Source: a virus. From it: a stretch of 21,070 nucleotides of DNA. A model generated the notes under the pieces. The model was not told the origin of the DNA and ran no database searches. It was given only the letters and a program-made list of their open reading frames with translations. The stretch is from IMG/VR virus record IMGVR_UViG_3300010334_000337, positions 1 to 21,070 of that record. One strand, 5' to 3'. Position numbers and translations under genes: made by a program. Shown one piece after another: positions 3,519 through 21,063 of this stretch (position 1 is its first letter; each line of letters opens with the position of its first letter).

Positions 3519-3752
3519 TCATTGATTTAGTATATTATTGATCTTTTCTATAAAAATGTCAATCTTTTTTACGCGGTCTGGCCAAACAATATTCGGCTTC
3601 TCAGGATTCTTCTTTAGATTATTAAGAAGAGGCATGATAGCATCGTACATCTTCTGAGCTTTGCTCTCAGCAGAGTCTACTGCTACAGATAAGTCGTCTG
3701 CAAAATCAAAGCCAAAGTCGTGACTATTTTCTATCTCTACTCTATTCTTCAT
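3519..3752 (-). CDS. Conserved small phage protein, NPEKPNIVWPDR motif (77 aa)
   Basis: The start at 3752 is set by GGGAG upstream and by a TAATG overlap with the PP-loop gene stop. A longer in-frame reading has no support. The N-terminus is acidic (HDFGFDFADD), followed by a helical segment and a characteristic LLNNLKKNPEKPNIVWPDRV motif and a Lys/Ile-rich C-terminal helix. This ending recurs in small proteins of many T4-like phages as I recall, with no known function. It sits between the PP-loop protein and uvsX in a coupled operon. Its 3' end contains a promoter-like sequence for uvsX. Confidence 0.8.
   Translation of the reverse strand: MKNRVEIENSHDFGFDFADDLSVAVDSAESKAQKMYDAIMPLLNNLKKNPEKPNIVWPDRVKKIDIFIEKINNILNQ
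3534..3562 (-). promoter_or_regulatory. Possible promoter for uvsX
   Basis: TTGACA (3562-3557) followed by a TTTTTATAGAAAA-type spacer as in other promoters here. The -10 is ambiguous: AATAAT at 17 nt (3539-3534) or TAATAT at 19 nt. It lies within the end of the 77-aa gene, about 30-60 bases before the uvsX ATG. Confidence 0.5.
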
Positions 3753-4408
3753 TATAGTCTCCCAAATCCCCACTTTCTCTCTAGACACCACCAGCAACCA
3801 GTACCGCAGTGTGGTTCAGTATGAGGTACACTTACGTTTTCACAGCTTCTAGTTATTGGAAAAAGATTTTCCATAAGATCGTAGTTTCTATAGAGCTCAG
3901 CTACTCCGCGCTTGTTTATATTTGCTAGTGGAGTAAATGATCTTCCACGAGGACTCACTGTAGGCTTTATAGTACCGTCAGGATCTCTCTCATCATCTCT
4001 TATAAACAAGTTTTCAATATCGACTTCATCTTTAGGGGGATTAAGAGTAATACCTGCAAAGTGACAGTCAACGACGTTTGTTTTATACAGACTCTTCATA
4101 AGTGTATTCTGTGAAATTGAATAGTCTTCAGGAGATACCCACTCATCTGGTATAACATGTTCTGAAAACTTAATCTTTAACTGATCTTCAATGAATGATA
4201 CTATAGCCTTAGCATATATGTCTTGCCATGGCTTTATTGAGTTTATAACAGTAATTGGTACTATATTAATGTCTCTAACTTGCTTCTTATATAATCCAAT
4301 CATGTATGCAAGTACTGCGCTGTCGACGCCGCCAGATAATTTTATTCCGACGTTATTTTCAGCTGGGTTTATTATAACTTCACCTTGAGATGTTTGAGAT
4401 ACTATCAT
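3752..4408 (-). CDS. PP-loop ATPase resembling QueC (7-cyano-7-deazaguanine synthase-like)
   Basis: The 218-aa protein has the PP-loop signature SGGVDS at residues 25-30, which binds ATP pyrophosphate in enzymes that adenylate a substrate. Its C terminus has four Cys (189, 201, 205, 208) in SC...HCGTGCWWCLERKW, close to the QueC zinc site (C...CGxCxxC followed by ER) but with one extra residue. QueC makes preQ0, a precursor of queuosine and of 7-deazaguanine DNA bases in some phages. No queD, queE, folE or base-exchange enzyme is visible here, so the substrate is uncertain; asparagine synthase-like or tRNA-thiolation roles remain possible. ATG 4408 overlaps the gene 43 stop (TAATG) with GGAGG upstream, and its stop overlaps the next ATG. 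Confidence 0.75.
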   Translation of the reverse strand: MIVSQTSQGEVIINPAENNVGIKLSGGVDSAVLAYMIGLYKKQVRDINIVPITVINSIKPWQDIYAKAIVSFIEDQLKIKFSEHVIPDEWVSPEDYSISQNTLMKSLYKTNVVDCHFAGITLNPPKDEVDIENLFIRDDERDPDGTIKPTVSPRGRSFTPLANINKRGVAELYRNYDLMENLFPITRSCENVSVPHTEPHCGTGCWWCLERKWGFGRL

Positions 4409-8818: not shown

Positions 8819-10108
8819 ATGACAGAAGTTTTTTGTCCACTACCATGGTATCATCTCGCTACTAAAGCAAACGGCGATCTAAGAATCTGCTGTCAGTCTA
8901 ATCAAGGACCGACAAGAGGTATTCTTAAGAACGAGAGCGGCGATACGTACAATCTAAATAAACACGGAATTATGGATTCTAGAAACGCACCTCTAGCTAA
9001 AGAAGTGCGCGCAGCGATGCTCAATGGTATTAAGCACCCAGAGTGCTCTAGGTGTTGGAAAGAAGAGAGCAGTGGAATACGTAGCAAAAGAATAGGCTCA
9101 ATCGAGCTTCATAGCATGTATGACTCATACGGCGAAGCTATTCAGGTTACTCAGCCAGATGGTACAATACCGCAAGACTTTCCATATAGAGACTACGATC
9201 TTAGATTTGGAAACTTATGCAACTTAAAGTGTAGAATGTGCGGACCGACTGAAAGTTCAATGTGGTATGACGACTACTTTGAACAGCACGGTAAAAAGTT
9301 CGATGATACGGGTTATAGATGGCACGAGAGACCGGAGATATGGAGAGACTTAGAATCTCAGATGGAATATTCAGAGTACGTCTATATTATTGGAGGCGAG
9401 CCTACTCTAATACAGAAGCATTTTGAATTTTTAGAGAAGTGTATTAAGAACGATCACTCTAAACGCATGAGACTTGAGTACGCATCTAACATAACTAACA
9501 TTCATCAAAAGTACTTTGATATATGGAGTCAGTTCAAGAAAGTACATATAGCGTGCTCAATAGACGGTGTTGGAGCGGTGAATGACTACATACGATTTCC
9601 AAGTAAGTGGAAAGTCATTGAAAAAAACTTAGAGAAGCTAGTAGCATATTCGTCTAAGAAAATAAGAATTACGATATCACTTACGGTGAACGCCTATAAC
9701 GTGTACTATCTAGACGACGTATATAAGTGGAATCTTCAGAACCTAGAATGTAAGATTAATCCACACCCTCTCCATGGCCCGCGACTAATGAGCACAAAGA
9801 TATTTCCTAAATACATTAAAGATGATATAGCTAAGAAGATAAGGTCTCTTTATCAGTGGATGAAAAATAACGGTCATGGTGATAAAGTGGAGAATATATC
9901 AAGACAAATAGAAAGTCATATACACTTTATGATGAGTGAAGATCTGTCTCAACTCATGCCAGAATTCTGGAAAGAGACAGACAAACTAGATGCAATTAGG
10001 AGACAGAATATATCAAATTCTCTCCCAGAGCTCTATGATTTGATAAAAGATACTCGAAATTTATTAAACATAGGAGACTACAATGGCATCAAAGAGCCTT
10101 CAGCCTGA
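8819..10108 (+). CDS. Twitch-domain radical SAM enzyme (late)
   Basis: The 429-aa protein has the radical SAM cluster motif CNLKCRMC (C134, C138, C141), followed by GGEP near residues 192-195, which binds S-adenosylmethionine. Before it, Cys residues 6, 24, 25, 76 and 79 (FCPLPW, ICCQS, CSRCW) form an N-terminal auxiliary-cluster region like the twitch/SPASM-related proteins found in marine phages. Radical SAM enzymes with auxiliary clusters often modify peptides or proteins, but the phage substrate is unknown. The gene lies seven bases after the small membrane-protein gene, with a poor ribosome-binding site (AAGAAG). It overlaps the EF-hand gene by 26 nt. Late-strand placement argues against a simple early metabolic role. 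Confidence 0.85.
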   Translation: MTEVFCPLPWYHLATKANGDLRICCQSNQGPTRGILKNESGDTYNLNKHGIMDSRNAPLAKEVRAAMLNGIKHPECSRCWKEESSGIRSKRIGSIELHSMYDSYGEAIQVTQPDGTIPQDFPYRDYDLRFGNLCNLKCRMCGPTESSMWYDDYFEQHGKKFDDTGYRWHERPEIWRDLESQMEYSEYVYIIGGEPTLIQKHFEFLEKCIKNDHSKRMRLEYASNITNIHQKYFDIWSQFKKVHIACSIDGVGAVNDYIRFPSKWKVIEKNLEKLVAYSSKKIRITISLTVNAYNVYYLDDVYKWNLQNLECKINPHPLHGPRLMSTKIFPKYIKDDIAKKIRSLYQWMKNNGHGDKVENISRQIESHIHFMMSEDLSQLMPEFWKETDKLDAIRRQNISNSLPELYDLIKDTRNLLNIGDYNGIKEPSA

Positions 10109-10400: not shown

Positions 10401-11444
10401 TTACCTTAAGAACTGGTCTTCGAAGTGGTCATGCTCTACTGAGCAAGTCTTTGCACACATTCGCAGTTTTCCTTCTGCGAGTGACGGCGCGCTCCATGAC
10501 TTCTCAATCTTATCAAAGAATCCGCTCTCGAAGACGCCGTTTATACCGTGCACCTTTGCATCTATATCTGATTTATCACTTATTATGTGCTTAAACAGGT
10601 GACTGTCTTTATATTTTGATACTTCGGGATCATACATCTCGGAGCCACCTATCCAGCAGCAAGGTACCACTAGCCCTTCTGCACTAACGTACATTGAATT
10701 CTGCTTAACGACCCTGCACCCAATCTCAGTCTTATCTAAGAACTTATCCCAGCCCCCAAACTTCTGCTTAGCGCGCTCTCTAAAGTCGTTTACGTCGTGT
10801 ACGTATTCTTTCTTTTCCGGCTGAGATAGGTGTTTATATACTGACATGCCGTTCTGCCAGCGCGATGTACGCTTTGGTATAAAAGCCTTGAACCCTAGCT
10901 TCTTAGCCAGTGCTCGAGCTTCTTCTACCTGATGCTCGTTATGCTTGAACACTAGAAAGTGCCACTCGGCTTGGCCGCCAGCACCTATGAAAGACTCCAT
11001 CGCATTCATTACCCTGTCCCACTGGACGTTTTCTCTGTAGATATGGTTCGTATCTTCCAGTCCATCGACCGAGAAGGTAACTCGACCTTCATACAGCACC
11101 GATGCTAGGTCTCTCCACCACTCTGAGCTGCGCGCTCCTCCGTTGGTGAACATGCTCAGCTTCATAGATAGATTAGTATACCTAAAATACTCAAACACTT
11201 CAAGCGTGTCTCTAGCCATTATAGGATCGCCGAAGTTTCCACACATGTACATGGCATGGAGCTGCTTGATAAAGTCTTTCTCAAAGATGTTCTTGCAGTC
11301 TTCTAGAGAAAGCTCAGCGTTCGTTAGGTGGTGCATTAGCTTTCCGCTACCGCTGCTGTCGTGTCTAGGACACATGGCGCAGCCGGCCTGACACTTCTCA
11401 GTTATCTCTAGGTGTACCTTGCGTATATCCCTGTACTTATACAT
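10401..11444 (-). CDS. Radical SAM/SPASM enzyme (minus strand)
   Basis: With start at 11444 the protein is 347 aa. CQAGCAMC (C18, C22, C25) is the radical SAM cluster motif, right after a beta strand (KVHLEITEK). The middle has the typical SAM-domain pattern (MYMCGNFGDP, FTNGG, FSVDGLED). The C terminus carries SPASM-like Cys (GCRVV, VPCCW, MCAKTCS) for auxiliary clusters. Members often act in peptide or cofactor modification; the substrate is unknown. The start at 11444 overlaps the stop of the upstream membrane protein by one base (TGATG). A longer reading to 11537 lacks support and starts with out-of-character sequence. It is unlike the plus-strand radical SAM in architecture. Confidence 0.87.
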   Translation of the reverse strand: MYKYRDIRKVHLEITEKCQAGCAMCPRHDSSGSGKLMHHLTNAELSLEDCKNIFEKDFIKQLHAMYMCGNFGDPIMARDTLEVFEYFRYTNLSMKLSMFTNGGARSSEWWRDLASVLYEGRVTFSVDGLEDTNHIYRENVQWDRVMNAMESFIGAGGQAEWHFLVFKHNEHQVEEARALAKKLGFKAFIPKRTSRWQNGMSVYKHLSQPEKKEYVHDVNDFRERAKQKFGGWDKFLDKTEIGCRVVKQNSMYVSAEGLVVPCCWIGGSEMYDPEVSKYKDSHLFKHIISDKSDIDAKVHGINGVFESGFFDKIEKSWSAPSLAEGKLRMCAKTCSVEHDHFEDQFLR

Positions 11445-11659
11445 CAGATGGTCGTCGGTGACTTCATCGGATCGTAAGGGTCGATCTTCTCTATGCGGCT
11501 GAGAGCGTCTTTCTCGTAGCGAAGAACTTGATACCATCCGAGGAAGGCAGTAAAGTCTGCAAACATGGCCGAGTAGTTCTGGTTGAAGATCTCAATGATA
11601 AAAGAAACCGCGACTACTGCTAGGATCGCGTACGAGAGCTTAATAAAGGTATGTATCAT
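11444..11659 (-). CDS. Small membrane protein before radical SAM enzyme (71 aa)
   Basis: One strong hydrophobic segment (about residues 8-26, SYAILAVVAVSFIIEIF), a weaker one near 31-45 and a polar C-terminal tail (RIEKIDPYDPMKSPTTI). Its ATG overlaps the preceding stop (ATGA), and its stop overlaps the radical SAM start (TGATG), so all three genes of this operon are translationally coupled. The family is not recognised. Pairing a small membrane protein with a radical SAM enzyme repeats the arrangement on the opposite strand. Confidence 0.78.
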   Translation of the reverse strand: MIHTFIKLSYAILAVVAVSFIIEIFNQNYSAMFADFTAFLGWYQVLRYEKDALSRIEKIDPYDPMKSPTTI

Positions 11660-14608: not shown

Positions 14609-14637
14609 ATATTAGTACTTTTTTCAAAAAATGTCAA
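14609..14637 (-). promoter_or_regulatory. Promoter of the DUF932 operon
   Basis: TTGACA (14637-14632), 17-nt spacer TTTTTTGAAAAAAGTAC, TAATAT (14614-14609). The -35 hexamer contains the TGA stop codon (14636-14634) of the upstream 64-aa gene. Confidence 0.88.
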
Positions 14638-15170: not shown

Positions 15171-15199
15171 ATATTAGTATTTTTTTGATAAAATGTCAA
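15171..15199 (-). promoter_or_regulatory. Promoter of the 104-aa gene (PeSL-like cassette)
   Basis: TTGACA (15199-15194), 17-nt A/T spacer, TAATAT (15176-15171) on the minus strand, immediately after a terminator hairpin (15206-15234). Confidence 0.88.
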
Positions 15200-15572: not shown

Positions 15573-16658
15573 TCACAATCGGGGTAGGGAGCCTCCCCTG
15601 TGAAGCTCCGTGGTATTGCAGTGGATTCCACCATCAAAAAAGAATCTGTGTCTCAGGGGTGATATGTGTGGCACTATGCCATGCTTCTCAAAGGCATCAA
15701 AAGCCTGCTTGTTATAAGAAGAAACTATGACGTTCTTCTCATCTATTGTCAAAATATTGACATCAAATATGTTTTCTCTGATATGCTTAGACCAGTCATT
15801 CATCCACTTCTCTACGTACTCTACGAGCTCGTCATCGTCCTGAGCTCTAGGCATGTACCACTTTCCATGGTTCTTCTTCTTTGAAGCAAGAAAATCATTC
15901 ATTGAATTTAGTCTGCTGTTCTTGAAGTAGATGACTTCCCATCCGGGGAACGTCTTACTATAAGTGTCTGGGCTATAGACTGAGAATATAAGACCCGGCT
16001 TTACTGGATTAAAGCAGCCATCTGTATGACCACCACTCGTTACAGGAATGACGCTGTAGTCTCTAAGCCAGTTCTCCCACACGTAGTCTACAGCGTCTAT
16101 CATCTCAAAGTCGGTAAGCTTCTTGCTCGATCCAAAGAGTATATCTTTGCCAGTTCTCCATATACCGTTTAGCCTAATTAGGCTTAAAACATCATCGCTC
16201 TCACCTCGAATTATCTTATTTCCGTTTGACTCAACATAGTCAAATACATTATCAAAGCACGAACTTAAGTTTTCTTTTTTGATGTCTTCAAGACTTAGCT
16301 TTATAGCACACTGTCTATTCTGCTTTATAACAATCTGATCGGGTGGAAATGAAAAGAACTTATCTCCTATCATTATTATCTGGTCTCTAGGTACAGCGGA
16401 GACTGCAGGTGGTATGCTTATACCCTTTGATATATACTTTTCTGTATCTACTAGCGGCACCCTAGGGCGCAATACGTCTATGTTAAACGTCTTTAAGATG
16501 GAGATTAGTTTCTGCTTGTCTTCTTCCACCTCTATCGCAATCTGCTCAAACAGATTGCGAAGCCTACGGTTCTTCATAAAGCTAAAGAACTCAGGTGGGT
16601 AGCTTCTTCCTACCACGCATACCTTGAGTGGGTCCCACTCTTGATTCACTGTTAACAT
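15573..16658 (-). CDS. Pentein-fold amidinotransferase/deiminase-like enzyme
   Basis: The 361-aa protein opens NQEWDPLKVCVVGR, like the EWDPL-V-VGR opening of amidinotransferases. Predicted catalytic residues are present: PRD at 90-92, H211 and D213 (SGGHTDGCFNP), and Cys347 in FDGGIHCNTTELHR near the C terminus, the Cys nucleophile motif of glycine and inosamine-phosphate amidinotransferases. Such enzymes transfer an amidino group from arginine to an amine; close relatives instead deiminate arginine. The acceptor here is unknown. The start is 2 nt after the HAD gene stop, and the two genes are probably coupled. A cassette terminator and 20-bp repeat follow it. The family is confident, but transferase versus hydrolase is not decided. 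Confidence 0.87.
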   Translation of the reverse strand: MLTVNQEWDPLKVCVVGRSYPPEFFSFMKNRRLRNLFEQIAIEVEEDKQKLISILKTFNIDVLRPRVPLVDTEKYISKGISIPPAVSAVPRDQIIMIGDKFFSFPPDQIVIKQNRQCAIKLSLEDIKKENLSSCFDNVFDYVESNGNKIIRGESDDVLSLIRLNGIWRTGKDILFGSSKKLTDFEMIDAVDYVWENWLRDYSVIPVTSGGHTDGCFNPVKPGLIFSVYSPDTYSKTFPGWEVIYFKNSRLNSMNDFLASKKKNHGKWYMPRAQDDDELVEYVEKWMNDWSKHIRENIFDVNILTIDEKNVIVSSYNKQAFDAFEKHGIVPHISPLRHRFFFDGGIHCNTTELHRGGSLPRL

Positions 16659-16660
16659 GT

Positions 16661-17278
16661 CTAAGCGGTGTACCTCTTCATTGATCCGTCTGGTCTGACG
16701 TGATACGCATGGAACTGAGTGTGTGGGTATTCTCTCTTGAGTCCTAAGAAAGCATCCAAGTTCTCGTGGCTGTCATCATACATCCTAACGTGAGTGTAGG
16801 GATGATTTGCGAGGTGCTGTCTAATGAATGTAAGCTTCTTGTTAGCCGGCTTCTCGTTACCCGGAATGTTTCCAGCTCGATGCACATGGATGTCGTGCAT
16901 GTTATGAATGCCATGCGCAGTGAGAGTATTTAAGAACCTGTGCTTGTCATCGAAGTCTGCTCGAGCCGTGTTGATGATGACCCTGTTCTTTGGGTTCTTC
17001 TTCCTAGTCGCAGAAGTAGCATTGATCGTGTTGATCATGCGATGGATCGGCTTTGACTTACTAAACACGCGAGAGCTCTTGAACTCATGATAGTCGTAGT
17101 GGTGTCCGGGTGGAAGCCTATGGCTGTTGTACTCAGACGTAGTCAGCTTCTGGACAGTATGCCCGTGTGGGTCCTTTACGTGCACCTTCGCGTTCGAGTG
17201 GACTAGCGTATCGTCCACGTCGAACACGTGCAGTGTAGATGACTCTGATATGAACTCTGAGAAGGGCTTCAGTTGCAT
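16661..17278 (-). CDS. HAD-superfamily hydrolase with capsid-targeting-like N terminus
   Basis: The 205-aa protein (start 17278) has HAD motif I DVDDT (D20, D22), motif II Thr in INTARAD (T105), a Lys in the NEKPANKK segment and motif IV MYDDS at 167-170, so it looks like an active phosphatase. The first residues, MQLKPFSEFISES, resemble the capsid-targeting peptide of T4 internal proteins (F-x-E-F-I-x-E-A), with an I-x-E|S site for a gp21-type prohead protease just before motif I. The longer frame from 17344 begins with GTG and is not supported. It overlaps the secreted protein gene by 10 nt, and the ribosome-binding site is weak. The substrate is unknown. Confidence 0.83.
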   Translation of the reverse strand: MQLKPFSEFISESSTLHVFDVDDTLVHSNAKVHVKDPHGHTVQKLTTSEYNSHRLPPGHHYDYHEFKSSRVFSKSKPIHRMINTINATSATRKKNPKNRVIINTARADFDDKHRFLNTLTAHGIHNMHDIHVHRAGNIPGNEKPANKKLTFIRQHLANHPYTHVRMYDDSHENLDAFLGLKREYPHTQFHAYHVRPDGSMKRYTA

Positions 17279-17568
17279 ATTCTTTGATACTGTTCTACCC
17301 AAGCGTATCCATTCCACTGACGACCCATGAATACTATCTGACACTGGCGATCGTAGATCGAAGGCTCTTGAATGTAGGTACGCTGCTGGTTAGCCATGAT
17401 GCCGCCGAGGATCATGCCGCCGATGAGTCCGCCGAAGAGTGCTGCTCCAGCGTCACCGCCACGGTTGTAGTAGTTGCGCTGCTCGAAGCGACGCTGTTCC
17501 CATCCATGGGCTGAGGCTACCGATGTCATCGCCATCGTTGCTGCTAGCGCTATTGCGATCTTTCTCAT
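17269..17568 (-). CDS. Secreted/periplasmic glycine-zipper protein (99 aa)
   Basis: Start ATG 17568 has GGAG 6 nt upstream; an ATG at 17580 overlaps that site. Residues 1-20 (MRKIAIALAATMAMTSVASA) form a classical signal peptide with an ASA|H cleavage site. Residues 40-60 contain a glycine-zipper pattern (LFGGLIGGMILGGIMA), suggesting insertion in, or association with, the outer or inner membrane. The C-terminal part has two Cys and many Tyr/Gln (DRQCQIVFMGRQWNGY). Phage-encoded early envelope proteins can act in superinfection exclusion or envelope remodelling, but nothing here proves that. It has its own promoter at 17594-17622. Confidence 0.78.
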   Translation of the reverse strand: MRKIAIALAATMAMTSVASAHGWEQRRFEQRNYYNRGGDAGAALFGGLIGGMILGGIMANQQRTYIQEPSIYDRQCQIVFMGRQWNGYAWVEQYQRICN

Positions 17569-17593: not shown

Positions 17594-17622
17594 AATATAG
17601 CGGTTTTATTAAAAAAGGTCAA
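17594..17622 (-). promoter_or_regulatory. Promoter for the secreted glycine-zipper gene
   Basis: TTGACC (17622-17617), 17-nt spacer, TATATT (17599-17594) on the minus strand, followed by the family leader AATAATATAAGCAATGGAGA. Confidence 0.82.
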
Positions 17623-17864: not shown

Positions 17865-17891
17865 TTGTATCTCTCCATTGCTTATATTATT

Positions 17892-17920
17892 AATATAGTC
17901 TTTTTTTGAAAAAATGTCAA
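17892..17920 (-). promoter_or_regulatory. Promoter for the 77-aa gene
   Basis: TTGACA (17920-17915), 17-nt spacer TTTTTTCAAAAAAAGAC, TATATT (17897-17892) on the minus strand, with the family leader. Confidence 0.88.
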
Positions 17921-17935
17921 CAGAAAAATAAGCCA

Positions 17936-17954
17936 TTGAAAAGATTAAGCTTTT
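17936..17954. repeat. Cassette repeat, copy 3 (diverged)
   Basis: TTGAAAAGATTAAGCTTTT matches the 20-bp repeat at 15233 and 15550 with small changes. The LpxH-like stop codon (17945-17947) lies inside it, so the gene end coincides with the repeat. Confidence 0.75.
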
Positions 17955-18715
17955 CCCCACATCACGACCTCGAACCGACCGTCCAGATGCTCGACCACAG
18001 CCGAGCAAGTCTCGACCCAGTCGCCGCAGTTAATGTAAGTAGTCCCCGAGATATCTCTAAGGTTAGGATGGTGGATATGACCACAAACAATGCCTTGTAC
18101 GCCCTTAGATACTGCATAATTACTGAGATTCTCTTCATACTGACTTATAAAGTTCACTGCTTTCTTTACCTTGTACTTGGCCCACGCTGATAGCGACCAG
18201 TGAGGTAGATTGAGCAGGTTCCTGATCTTGACTACGGCTACATTGATATAGATGAGAAAGTCATATGCCCAACTACCGAGATGTGCTAGCCACTTCATCT
18301 TGTTAATCACGACGTCAAACTGGTCGCCGTGCATTACTATGTACTTCTTGCCGTCCGGACCTAAGTGCACTATAGTATCGGTAAGTGAGATGTTGCCGAA
18401 CTCGTGGTCGCCGAACGACCTCAAGAACTCATCGTGGTTACCCGGAAGGTAGACTACTCGAGTACCCTTGCGAGCCCTTCTCAGGATCTTCTGTATAACG
18501 TCGTTGTGGTCCTGCGGCCAGTAGAAGCCAGAGTTGAGCGCCCAGCCGTCGACTATATCGCCGACTAGGTATAGGTTATCACACTCGAATGTCTTGAAGA
18601 ATTCTAAGAGAAAGTCGGCACGGCTCATTTTGGTACCGAGGTGCACGTCGGAGATGAATACGGAGCGGTACCTCAGTACCTGTTGCCGATCGTGTACTTC
18701 GTCACTAGGTTCCAC
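17945..18715 (-). CDS. LpxH-like metallophosphatase (UDP-2,3-diacylglucosamine hydrolase-like)
   Basis: The 256-aa calcineurin-like phosphoesterase shows all metal-binding motifs: DVH (D23, H25), GDIVDGW (52-58), GNHDE (92-96), HGD (129-131) and CGHIHH (211-216). The overall sequence (SDVHLGTK, VGDIVDGW, YWPQDHNDV, WSLSAWAK) is very like bacterial UDP-2,3-diacylglucosamine diphosphatases and their paralogues, which act in lipid A assembly at the inner membrane. A phage copy could adjust the host envelope or act on another pyrophosphate; activity is not proven. The start is uncertain. GTG 18715 lies within regA (43-nt overlap, weak AGAGAAG), and no better start precedes motif I. The stop falls in a cassette repeat. 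Confidence 0.88.
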   Translation of the reverse strand: MEPSDEVHDRQQVLRYRSVFISDVHLGTKMSRADFLLEFFKTFECDNLYLVGDIVDGWALNSGFYWPQDHNDVIQKILRRARKGTRVVYLPGNHDEFLRSFGDHEFGNISLTDTIVHLGPDGKKYIVMHGDQFDVVINKMKWLAHLGSWAYDFLIYINVAVVKIRNLLNLPHWSLSAWAKYKVKKAVNFISQYEENLSNYAVSKGVQGIVCGHIHHPNLRDISGTTYINCGDWVETCSAVVEHLDGRFEVVMWGKA

Positions 18716-19068
18716 TGAGACTTCTCTTTATAAGGAATGATCTTGACTTGATTGATAGGTGCTATTGGATCTTTGACCTGATCCTTGTCGACAATCTCTA
18801 CGAGGTTCCACTCGTCCAGCAGCAGCACTATCTTGTTTCTTCTAGCAACGTCGCTCTCAGAGAAGTCTGCCTGCTTTCCATCGAGCATAAAGAGCTCTTT
18901 GAAGTGCACGATGTAGTACCTACCCTGCTTGTGCAGGATGTGGCAAGATTGATACAGCGTATTGTCTTTTTTGGAAGCTAGCCCTATGCGAGACAGTGTC
19001 TCTTTAACTTTTAGAAAATCTTCAGAGCTTCTAAGACGAACTTCCACCAGTTGACTTAGATTGAACAT
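18673..19068 (-). CDS. regA: RegA translational repressor
   Basis: The 131-aa protein matches T4 RegA (122 aa) clearly: the EDFLKVKETLSRIG segment, LYQSCHILHKQGRYYIVHFKE, and the YTIGN ending. RegA binds ribosome-binding sites of early mRNAs and represses translation of replication genes, including its own and those of the clamp loader. The start at 19068 lies within the end of gene 62 (38-nt overlap) and follows AAGGCGG. An additional N-terminal MFNLSQLVEV precedes the T4-like start. It keeps its T4 position after genes 44 and 62 but is separated from gene 43 by accessory genes. Confidence 0.95.
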   Translation of the reverse strand: MFNLSQLVEVRLRSSEDFLKVKETLSRIGLASKKDNTLYQSCHILHKQGRYYIVHFKELFMLDGKQADFSESDVARRNKIVLLLDEWNLVEIVDKDQVKDPIAPINQVKIIPYKEKSQWNLVTKYTIGNRY

Positions 19069-19453
19069 CAGTACCGCCTTTTATTATTCTTGTTCTTATA
19101 AGGTCGATCTGCTCTTTAGTAAGGATCTTAGATAACTCCAGCGCTCTCGCATAATTTATCTTGTAGTATTCCTGTACACATTGAACGTCGGGATCCTCAA
19201 CGTGCTTAGCCCACTTTGAGAACCTCTTTCCTTTTCTGACTATATTTATAAAATAGTCGTTTTGCAGTCGATTTTCTAGCAAATGGTTAACGTTCATCTC
19301 GTTTGCGTGGTATATCGTCTCAGGAAAGTAGGAGAGAGCCTTGTTTGTAAGGAACGGGTTGTAAGACTTCTCCGCGAGCACAGGGTTGTCTGAGTCGCGG
19401 ATCAAGTCTTTCTTCGTGGTATTGATTGCAGTGACAAAGTCAAAAGGGTTCAT
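19031..19453 (-). CDS. 62: Clamp loader small subunit gp62
   Basis: With gp44, gp62 forms the clamp loader (gp44 tetramer plus one gp62) that opens gp45 and loads it onto primed DNA. The 140-aa product is shorter than T4 gp62 (187 aa) but shares blocks such as NKALSYFPETIYHANEMN and RKGKRFSKWAKHVED. Start ATG 19453 overlaps the gene 44 stop (ATGA), with GGAG 6 nt upstream, so both subunits are translationally coupled, as in T4. The C-terminal ST/G/S-rich tail overlaps regA. Confidence 0.92.
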   Translation of the reverse strand: MNPFDFVTAINTTKKDLIRDSDNPVLAEKSYNPFLTNKALSYFPETIYHANEMNVNHLLENRLQNDYFINIVRKGKRFSKWAKHVEDPDVQCVQEYYKINYARALELSKILTKEQIDLIRTRIIKGGTDVQSKSTGGSSS

Positions 19454-20391
19454 TTGAACTCCACTGTCATCATGACCTCAGTCAAGAAGGCTGCAAGGTT
19501 GACTTCTTGGTCGGCGACGAACGCTGCCTGATACTGGTAGCGAGCAAGCAGGATTACGAGGTCTGCAATAGACCCAGCCTTCATGTACTCGTGTGCCGTA
19601 TCGTAGAACTTACGAAACATCGAGGTAGAGTCCATGTCAGAGTTCTCACCGACCCACTTACGCATCTCAGTGAACTTCTTTTCTTTCAAGAGACCGATGA
19701 GGTTGCGGAAGTTATCCTCGCCGAGGTTGGCGAAGATGCCGGTATCGATGTGACCGTTTACGGAGTATCTCTGTAGTTCATTAAGTACCCGACGCCAATC
19801 AGGCACGTGACGCTGAATAAGCTCAGCAATAGTAGCTTTATCATATCCGATTCCCTCTGAGTTGAGGATCTTTAGAGTGCGCTTGAAGAACTCACCGGCG
19901 AGAAGCGGAAGAGAGCTCTTAGGGATCTTGAACTCTACGACAGAGCACCGAGAATGTAGTGGTTCGATAATTCTGTTCTTGAAGTTACAGGTAAGGATAA
20001 ATCCGCAGTTCCTAGAATACTCTTCCATGAAGTTTCTAAGTGCGGGCTGGGTGGAATTGGCATTAAGGTAGTCAGCCTCATCGAGGATGACGTATTTGCG
20101 TCCACCAGTGAGAGAGACGCTTGAGGCGAACTGCTGTATATCGTTGCGAAGCGTGTCGATGTTTCCATTCATACTCCCGTTGATTACGATGTAGTCTGCA
20201 CCGACCTGCTCGAGCATGGCTCGGGCCACCGTCGTCTTACCGACGCCGGGGCCACCAGTCAAGAGGAGGTTCGGGATCTCCTTCATGTCCACGAACTTCT
20301 GAAAGGTACTCTTTAGTTCTTCAGGAAGCACGCAGTCACTTATAGTCTTTGGGCGATACTTCTCCACCCACAAGAATTCATCACGAACCAT
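19450..20391 (-). CDS. 44: Clamp loader ATPase subunit gp44
   Basis: The 313-aa AAA+ ATPase has Walker A GGPGVGKTT (46-54), Walker B VILDEAD (about 97-103) and an arginine-finger SRC motif (HSRCSVVEF, about 155), as expected of gp44/RFC-type loaders. ATP hydrolysis drives loading of the gp45 clamp onto DNA. It opens EFLWVEKYRPKTISDCV, the usual family start. ATG 20391 follows AAGGTGATATA and lies 9 bases after the gene 45 stop. The stop overlaps gene 62. Confidence 0.96.
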   Translation of the reverse strand: MVRDEFLWVEKYRPKTISDCVLPEELKSTFQKFVDMKEIPNLLLTGGPGVGKTTVARAMLEQVGADYIVINGSMNGNIDTLRNDIQQFASSVSLTGGRKYVILDEADYLNANSTQPALRNFMEEYSRNCGFILTCNFKNRIIEPLHSRCSVVEFKIPKSSLPLLAGEFFKRTLKILNSEGIGYDKATIAELIQRHVPDWRRVLNELQRYSVNGHIDTGIFANLGEDNFRNLIGLLKEKKFTEMRKWVGENSDMDSTSMFRKFYDTAHEYMKAGSIADLVILLARYQYQAAFVADQEVNLAAFLTEVMMTVEFK

Positions 20392-20400
20392 TATATCACC

Positions 20401-21063
20401 TTAGTTGTTGAAAGTGCTGTTGGACTCAGTAGGCACGTAGTAGTTGATGGTACTCGACGTAAAGAGTGCGAGACCCTTTGAAGAGATCTTGACGTTGTAT
20501 CCAGTCGAGATCAGCTTCATGATGTTCTCAGCCTTGAACACCATGTTGAACGACTTGTCAGTCGTACCGACGTCTACCATGAAGGTATCGGCCGATGGGT
20601 TCTTTGAGTTGTCAGCGCATAGGCGGATGACGCTGCCGTCACCGACCACGGTGATCTCAGGGAGTTGAAGAACGCCGGTAGCGCGTACTACTCGCTGCAG
20701 CTCTTCCTGAGTGATGTCGAACTCGATGTCAGGAGAAGGAAAGGTGATGTCCTTCTCAGGAGGAGTAACGATCATCGATGGGTCTGCATACGTATAGAGC
20801 AGAGACTGCTTGCCTGAGCTGATCTTCATGTTCTTCTCGCCGAACTCGATCTCAGGGTCGCTGAAGAGCGAGAGAACGCCGAGGAACTTAGAGAGCTCAT
20901 AGATGGCGAACTGTGAAGGAAAAGTCTCCTCCACAGTCACCTTAGCAAAGATCGTCTTCATCTCTGAGATTGTAGAGAGGACGCTTCCGGGCTTCACCAA
21001 GATCGACTTGTTGATAGTGGCGAAGTTCTTGAAGATTGCGATTGTATTTTCACTGATTTTCAT
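20401..21063 (-). CDS. 45: Sliding clamp gp45
   Basis: The 220-aa protein begins MKISENTIAIFKNFATINKS, matching T4 gp45 (228 aa; MKLSKDTTALLKNFATINS), and has FLGVLSLFSDPEIEF and the PTESNSTFNN C-terminal end like T4 LEADSTHDF. Gp45 is the trimeric ring that holds the polymerase on DNA. In T4 it is also the mobile activator of late transcription through gp33/gp55. The late promoters at 7835 and 7978 would use this activity. The start at 21063 is close to the window edge; its promoter and ribosome-binding site lie outside. It heads the 45-44-62-regA operon. Confidence 0.96.
   Translation of the reverse strand: MKISENTIAIFKNFATINKSILVKPGSVLSTISEMKTIFAKVTVEETFPSQFAIYELSKFLGVLSLFSDPEIEFGEKNMKISSGKQSLLYTYADPSMIVTPPEKDITFPSPDIEFDITQEELQRVVRATGVLQLPEITVVGDGSVIRLCADNSKNPSADTFMVDVGTTDKSFNMVFKAENIMKLISTGYNVKISSKGLALFTSSTINYYVPTESNSTFNN

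Follow-up and report, generated by a model that had tools for sequence, protein, structure and literature searches.

A gene labelled lpxH in a T4-like phage replication operon is best read as a captured plcP

Viral genes named lpxH have been presented as lipopolysaccharide synthesis genes in Lake Baikal (PMC9611531) and in oligotrophic offshore water (PMC10653327). A gene with a database annotation of this kind, UDP-2,3-diacylglucosamine diphosphatase, stands beside regA in the DNA analysed here, and a preliminary description made from the sequence alone had taken it for an LpxH-like enzyme, rare in phages, that could act on the host envelope through lipid A. Is it an enzyme of lipid A synthesis or another metallophosphatase, and what would a phage gain from it?

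A metallophosphatase gene in the replication operon

The window, by which we mean the whole stretch of DNA analysed (21,070 bases of a virus record), is a fragment of a T4-like phage with the minus-strand gene order gp45, gp44, gp62, regA and plcP (Table 1). The first four of these genes lie on one side of plcP, and gp43, uvsX and gp41 are found further along. The plcP reading frame is intact, with its stop codon at 17945-17947, and the extent of its overlap with regA follows from the regA frame. The GTG start is credible because the interval between it and the conserved core contains no ATG, GTG or TTG, because one relative (L007) keeps the GTG and because another (L011) has an ATG at that codon; the overlap had been described in the same terms before. 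A second group of relatives uses an ATG for plcP, located a few bases from the regA stop. Host contamination of the contig was ruled out by the overlap of plcP with regA within a phage replication operon, and also by the same gene order in ~20 other viral loci. The earlier view of a host-derived gene in the replication operon stands, with a metallophosphatase of cellular origin next to regA in a T4-like phage.

Table 1 Features of the plcP-like locus (window coordinates)
Feature	Position	Strand	Basis or remark
plcP-like gene (LpxH2/PlcP family metallophospholipase C, probable assignment)	17945-18715	-	ORF, tree, identities; 256 aa, GTG start
regA translational repressor, upstream operon partner	18673-19068	-	phrog_242, E=2.1e-58
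Overlap of plcP start and regA 3' end, 43 nt	18673-18715	-	GTG start; ATG at same codon in L011
gp62, gp44 (clamp loader) and gp45 (sliding clamp) genes, upstream	19031-21063	-	translations; order shared with plcP-bearing relatives
Repeat element after plcP, overlapping plcP stop codon	17865-17954	-	copies D1 17865-17949, D4 17923-17954
SDVHLG motif (ligands D23, H25)	18635-18652	-	alignment
GD motif (ligand D53)	18557-18562	-	alignment
GNHDE motif (ligand N93; His94 at LpxH's diagnostic Arg, GNRD)	18428-18442	-	alignment
HGD motif (ligand H129)	18323-18331	-	alignment
GHIH motif (ligands H213, H215)	18071-18082	-	alignment

At its other end, the frame closes inside a cassette repeat, as had been noticed, with the stop codon falling at the edge of the element, within D1 and D4. 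Read on the minus strand, this element holds a promoter-like TTGACA-17-TATATT (17920-17892), followed by a Shine-Dalgarno sequence and then by the next small accessory gene. With its start inside regA and its stop at the edge of this element, plcP is coupled to the replication operon, and the later accessory genes carry promoter-like cassettes of their own.

Promoter-like cassettes of the form TTGAC[AC]-17-TATATT or TAATAT occur on the minus strand at 14609-14637, 15171-15199, 17594-17622 and 17892-17920. Those in the window share a downstream leader and Shine-Dalgarno sequence and precede small accessory genes; the repeated cassettes are possibly units by which accessory genes are exchanged.

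Several further genes of the window were recorded. The minus-strand gene at 17269-17568 encodes a small protein whose N-terminus (MRKIAIALAATMAMTSVASAHG) resembles a signal peptide and whose relatives adjoin plcP in many viral loci, and that at 16661-17344 (-) encodes a protein resembling a polynucleotide kinase family (phrog_415), which is kept near plcP in many relatives. The 361-aa product of 15573-16658 (-) had no Pfam match; its C-terminal part is like amidinotransferases (arginine:glycine amidinotransferase and HsvA; E ~1e-8), and a similar protein is encoded near plcP in L004-L006 and L011. Between gp43 and uvsX, a PP-loop protein (3752-4408, minus strand) has an SGGVDS motif, a Cys-rich C-terminus and weak matches to QueC and to 4Fe-4S tRNA-U34 thiolase. 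Two radical SAM genes (8819-10108, plus strand, phrog_14086; 10401-11537, minus strand, phrog_21308) converge around a small gene.

Assignment to the PlcP family

The protein matched the Pfam Metallophos family (PF00149) at 3.8e-11, above the cut-off, and carries all seven metal ligands listed for the metallophosphoesterase fold (PMC5016852), namely D23, H25, D53, N93, H129, H213 and H215, which bears out the original call of an intact, full-motif metallophosphatase. Its motifs agree with the PlcP/LpxH2 set D-GD-GNH(E/D)-H-GHXH, which has His in the third block (set defined in PMC3087551). The curated LpxH models did not accept it: its score was 48 bits with NF003743 (cut-off 134) and 43 bits with TIGR01854 (cut-off 190).

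The residues that separate the two families point the same way. The third block reads GNRD in seven of seven aligned LpxH rows and GNHDE in the window protein; the Arg of this block is restricted to LpxH, where it binds a substrate phosphate, and the LpxH2 paralogue lacks most of the contacts with lipid X (PMC5016852). At about ten further positions that distinguish LpxH from PlcP, the window protein is of PlcP type, among them D134 (Cys in LpxH), C211 (His), Y227 (Arg) and N229 (Val). These family-specific PlcP positions are the same in cells and phages.

Over almost its whole length, the window protein shares 52% identity with the product of the Sinorhizobium meliloti plcP locus, 49% with PA3219 of Pseudomonas aeruginosa and 53% with a SAR11 homologue, and has the motifs GNHD, HGD, GHIH and GDW in common with them; the S. 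meliloti and PA3219 references are themselves only 48% identical to one another. Identity to the LpxH rows was 24-28%. A tree of 91 proteins set LpxH apart with 100/100 support and placed the window protein outside it, inside the LpxH2/PlcP family, in a clade of 30 phage rows only (98/95), nested among PlcPs of proteobacteria; the order in which this set and the cellular groups branch was without support. Five other phage sequences (Mosig, S-SRM01, L047, L048 and L053) lay outside the 30-row set. In each of five proteobacterial genomes (G009-G013), a true LpxH, at 245-279 bits, is accompanied by a distinct PlcP-like protein, at 44-57 bits.

Two reference loci anchor these comparisons. The S. 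meliloti locus lies next to genes with the annotations AHL synthase and LuxR-type regulator, and it was named on the assumption that plcP (SMc00171) of this species adjoins sinI/sinR. PA3219 was established as the phospholipase PlcP by deletion and lipidomics, with the glycosyltransferase PA3218 as its partner (PMC8528852). An evolutionary study (PMC3087551) uses the name LpxH2 for the proteins of these two species, and, as cited there, P. aeruginosa lpxH2 does not compensate for loss of lpxH in Escherichia coli. We infer that this PaLpxH2 is PA3219 because both are 270 aa long, and also from the glycosyltransferase and adenylate cyclase genes that adjoin plcP at the PA3219 locus.

A structure search confirmed the fold only. 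The nearest solved structures were LpxH (TM ~0.5), no PlcP structure was found in this search, and the helical lid region of the model had low confidence; Foldseek also matched DNA-processing metallophosphatases, more weakly than LpxH.

LpxH identity was rejected on the models, the key residue, the tree and the co-occurrence with true LpxH. Judged from sequence, the protein almost certainly belongs to PlcP/LpxH2, and the best reading of the gene is a phage-captured plcP (the family also called LpxH2) misnamed lpxH. The envelope is probably still the target, as first proposed, but probably not by way of a lipid A enzyme.

Distribution in viruses and pairing with agt

The gene had been considered rare in phages, but a wide scan returned at least 591 confirmed viral PlcP relatives. 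A scan for viral relatives also found a separate, distant family of viral metallophosphatases (L059-L065, 24-25% identity), which are probably not PlcP. Viral plcP often stands in one of two operons: after regA and the clamp-loader genes in the window group, L007, L011, L024-L026, L029-L034 and others, and in the ribonucleotide-reductase (nrdAB) operon in L008-L010, L012-L018 and L020-L022.

In three loci (L024-L026), a 333-aa GT4 glycosyltransferase, 43-44% identical to PA3218, is encoded directly 3' of plcP with an overlap of a few bases. Pairs of plcP with a PA3218-like glycosyltransferase were also present in L035, L037, L041, L044 and L047, and in L053 the neighbour is a more distant glycosyltransferase. 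A phage Agt used as scan query gave 81 matches. Overall, plcP and agt-like genes lay ≤600 nt apart on the same strand in 99 of 216 viral loci (82 distinct plcP sequences), a proportion that is not a frequency, many of the loci having been fetched with Agt as the query. Phage Agts carry GT4 domains, and most of them group with plcP-linked cellular Agts, including PA3218 and that of SAR11 (support 88).

The pair was found among contigs with regA, gp44 and gp62, and on contigs that measure 216-338 kb and encode a T4-type capsid. A T4-type major capsid accompanied plcP-agt in L041 (338 kb), L037, L267 (337 kb), L283 (327 kb), L265 (323 kb), L230, L318, L186, L311 and L269. The 338-kb contig (IMGVR_UViG_3300032334_001259; L041/L189) also encodes a terminase.

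Within the 21 kb of the window contig, no agt was seen. Three relatives with no adjacent copy (G016, G018 and G015, the last being the 157-kb L011 with regA-plcP) had none elsewhere either. Full remodelling in G015 or in the window phage would therefore need a host Agt, and in the window lineage PlcP may act alone or together with such a host enzyme.

The cultured Pelagibacter phage Mosig (EXVC030M) carries a 46% identical homologue under the same misleading kind of name, 'putative UDP-2,3-diacylglucosamine hydrolase'. Unlike the window gene, it is not in a regA operon: it and a phosphate ABC transporter gene are oriented divergently, with 151 bp between them, and its product lies outside the window's phage clade.

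Selection and promoter sites

Among phage plcP copies with usable synonymous distances, dN/dS was mostly 0.04-0.09, indicating purifying selection; one pair gave 0.18, and one near-identical, uninformative pair gave 0.77. Ratios against distant relatives, where synonymous sites are saturated, were not used. Pho-box-like sites (≤2 mismatches) were located upstream of 6 of 80 cellular plcP genes, with 0.03 expected from shuffles, compared to 0 of 34 viral plcP genes, none above chance. In phages, control of plcP through the replication operon seems to have taken the place of starvation control.

Discussion

In two articles (PMC8231724, PMC4796936), PlcP is described as a Mn-dependent metallophosphoesterase, a phospholipase C that converts phosphatidylglycerol and phosphatidylethanolamine to diacylglycerol under phosphorus stress, and Agt as the enzyme that adds glucose or glucuronate to diacylglycerol. 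For the phage gene, phosphorus-scavenging lipid remodelling is the likely role on the comparisons made here. The phage PlcP would be made along with the replication proteins and, using two metal ions (probably Mn), would remove the head groups of phosphatidylglycerol or phosphatidylethanolamine in the host, leaving diacylglycerol and the phospho-head-group. Phosphorus freed from membrane lipids in this way would enter dNTP/nucleotide and DNA synthesis of the phage, whose output phosphorus can limit because virions are DNA-rich. Agt would turn the diacylglycerol into a glycolipid free of phosphorus, and this replacement would keep the membrane working until lysis; many relatives encode the enzyme themselves, and in the others it presumably comes from the host.

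A real PlcP could instead serve the phage by changing the cell surface or membrane, through a block on superinfection, altered receptors or the timing of lysis. Membrane lipid composition alters phage attachment in Ruegeria (PMC9938194), lipid remodelling alters interactions with predators (PMC9457565), and an Agt partner would itself alter membrane lipids. The Ruegeria effect, however, is due to aminolipids and not to PlcP, and the replication and nrdAB operons, together with the phosphate transporter next to the Mosig gene, fit phosphorus supply better; we regard a benefit of this kind as unlikely. Less probable again is a PlcP descendant with a changed substrate, for example a phosphoesterase that acts on nucleotides or nucleic acids and is linked to replication. 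Replication and dNTP genes are indeed its operon neighbours and DNA-processing metallophosphatases were among the Foldseek matches, but the PlcP-specific positions are conserved from cells to phages, and the agt gene that is often adjacent in phages fits a producer of diacylglycerol. A true LpxH, that is, a UDP-2,3-diacylglucosamine pyrophosphatase raising or altering lipid A synthesis, is very improbable: it has the database label, the nearest solved structures and the common fold with its seven metal ligands in its favour, against scores far under the model cut-offs, ~25% identity, His in place of the Arg80-type residue, many other differing positions, a separate clade, genomes that hold both proteins, the agt linkage and the reported failure of P. 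aeruginosa lpxH2 to complement lpxH.

The setting of the phage gene departs from that of its cellular counterparts. The gene order and enzyme pair of the plcP-agt operon of marine and soil proteobacteria, where an agt neighbour is frequent, recur in many viral contigs; unlike the cellular operon, the phage pair is joined to regA and the clamp loader or to nrdAB, and Pho-box control has apparently been dropped. Within the PlcP/LpxH2 family, a genomic link to genes for lipids that lack phosphorus (agt or btaAB) is widespread without being universal; the window gene, itself phage-encoded, has no adjacent agt. Among genes already known from phages, it is comparable to those for phosphorus acquisition (pstS, phoD, ugpQ and others; PMC10987575), which are host-derived and likely ease phosphorus limits during infection, but plcP would tap the membrane pool.

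The phage phosphorus genes that we found in the literature concern transport, phosphate esters or regulation, and the main text of the 2024 survey of such genes (PMC10987575) mentions neither phospholipase nor plcP. Searches of the open-access literature returned nothing on plcP or plcP-agt in phages.

On a broader reading, which we hold slightly more likely than not, a functional plcP-agt pathway is widespread in phages of T4 type, including those of jumbo size, and draws phosphorus from host phospholipids during infection while swapping in glycolipids; the viral 'lpxH' (lipid A gene) of surveys would then at least partly be this pathway. The reading is directly testable because cultured Mosig carries a homologue. 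If it is true, the recurring annotation of viral lpxH as lipopolysaccharide synthesis would be corrected, and the host membrane would become an internal phosphorus store for phages that bring a phospholipase and its glycosyltransferase, with viruses rebuilding the membranes of their hosts.
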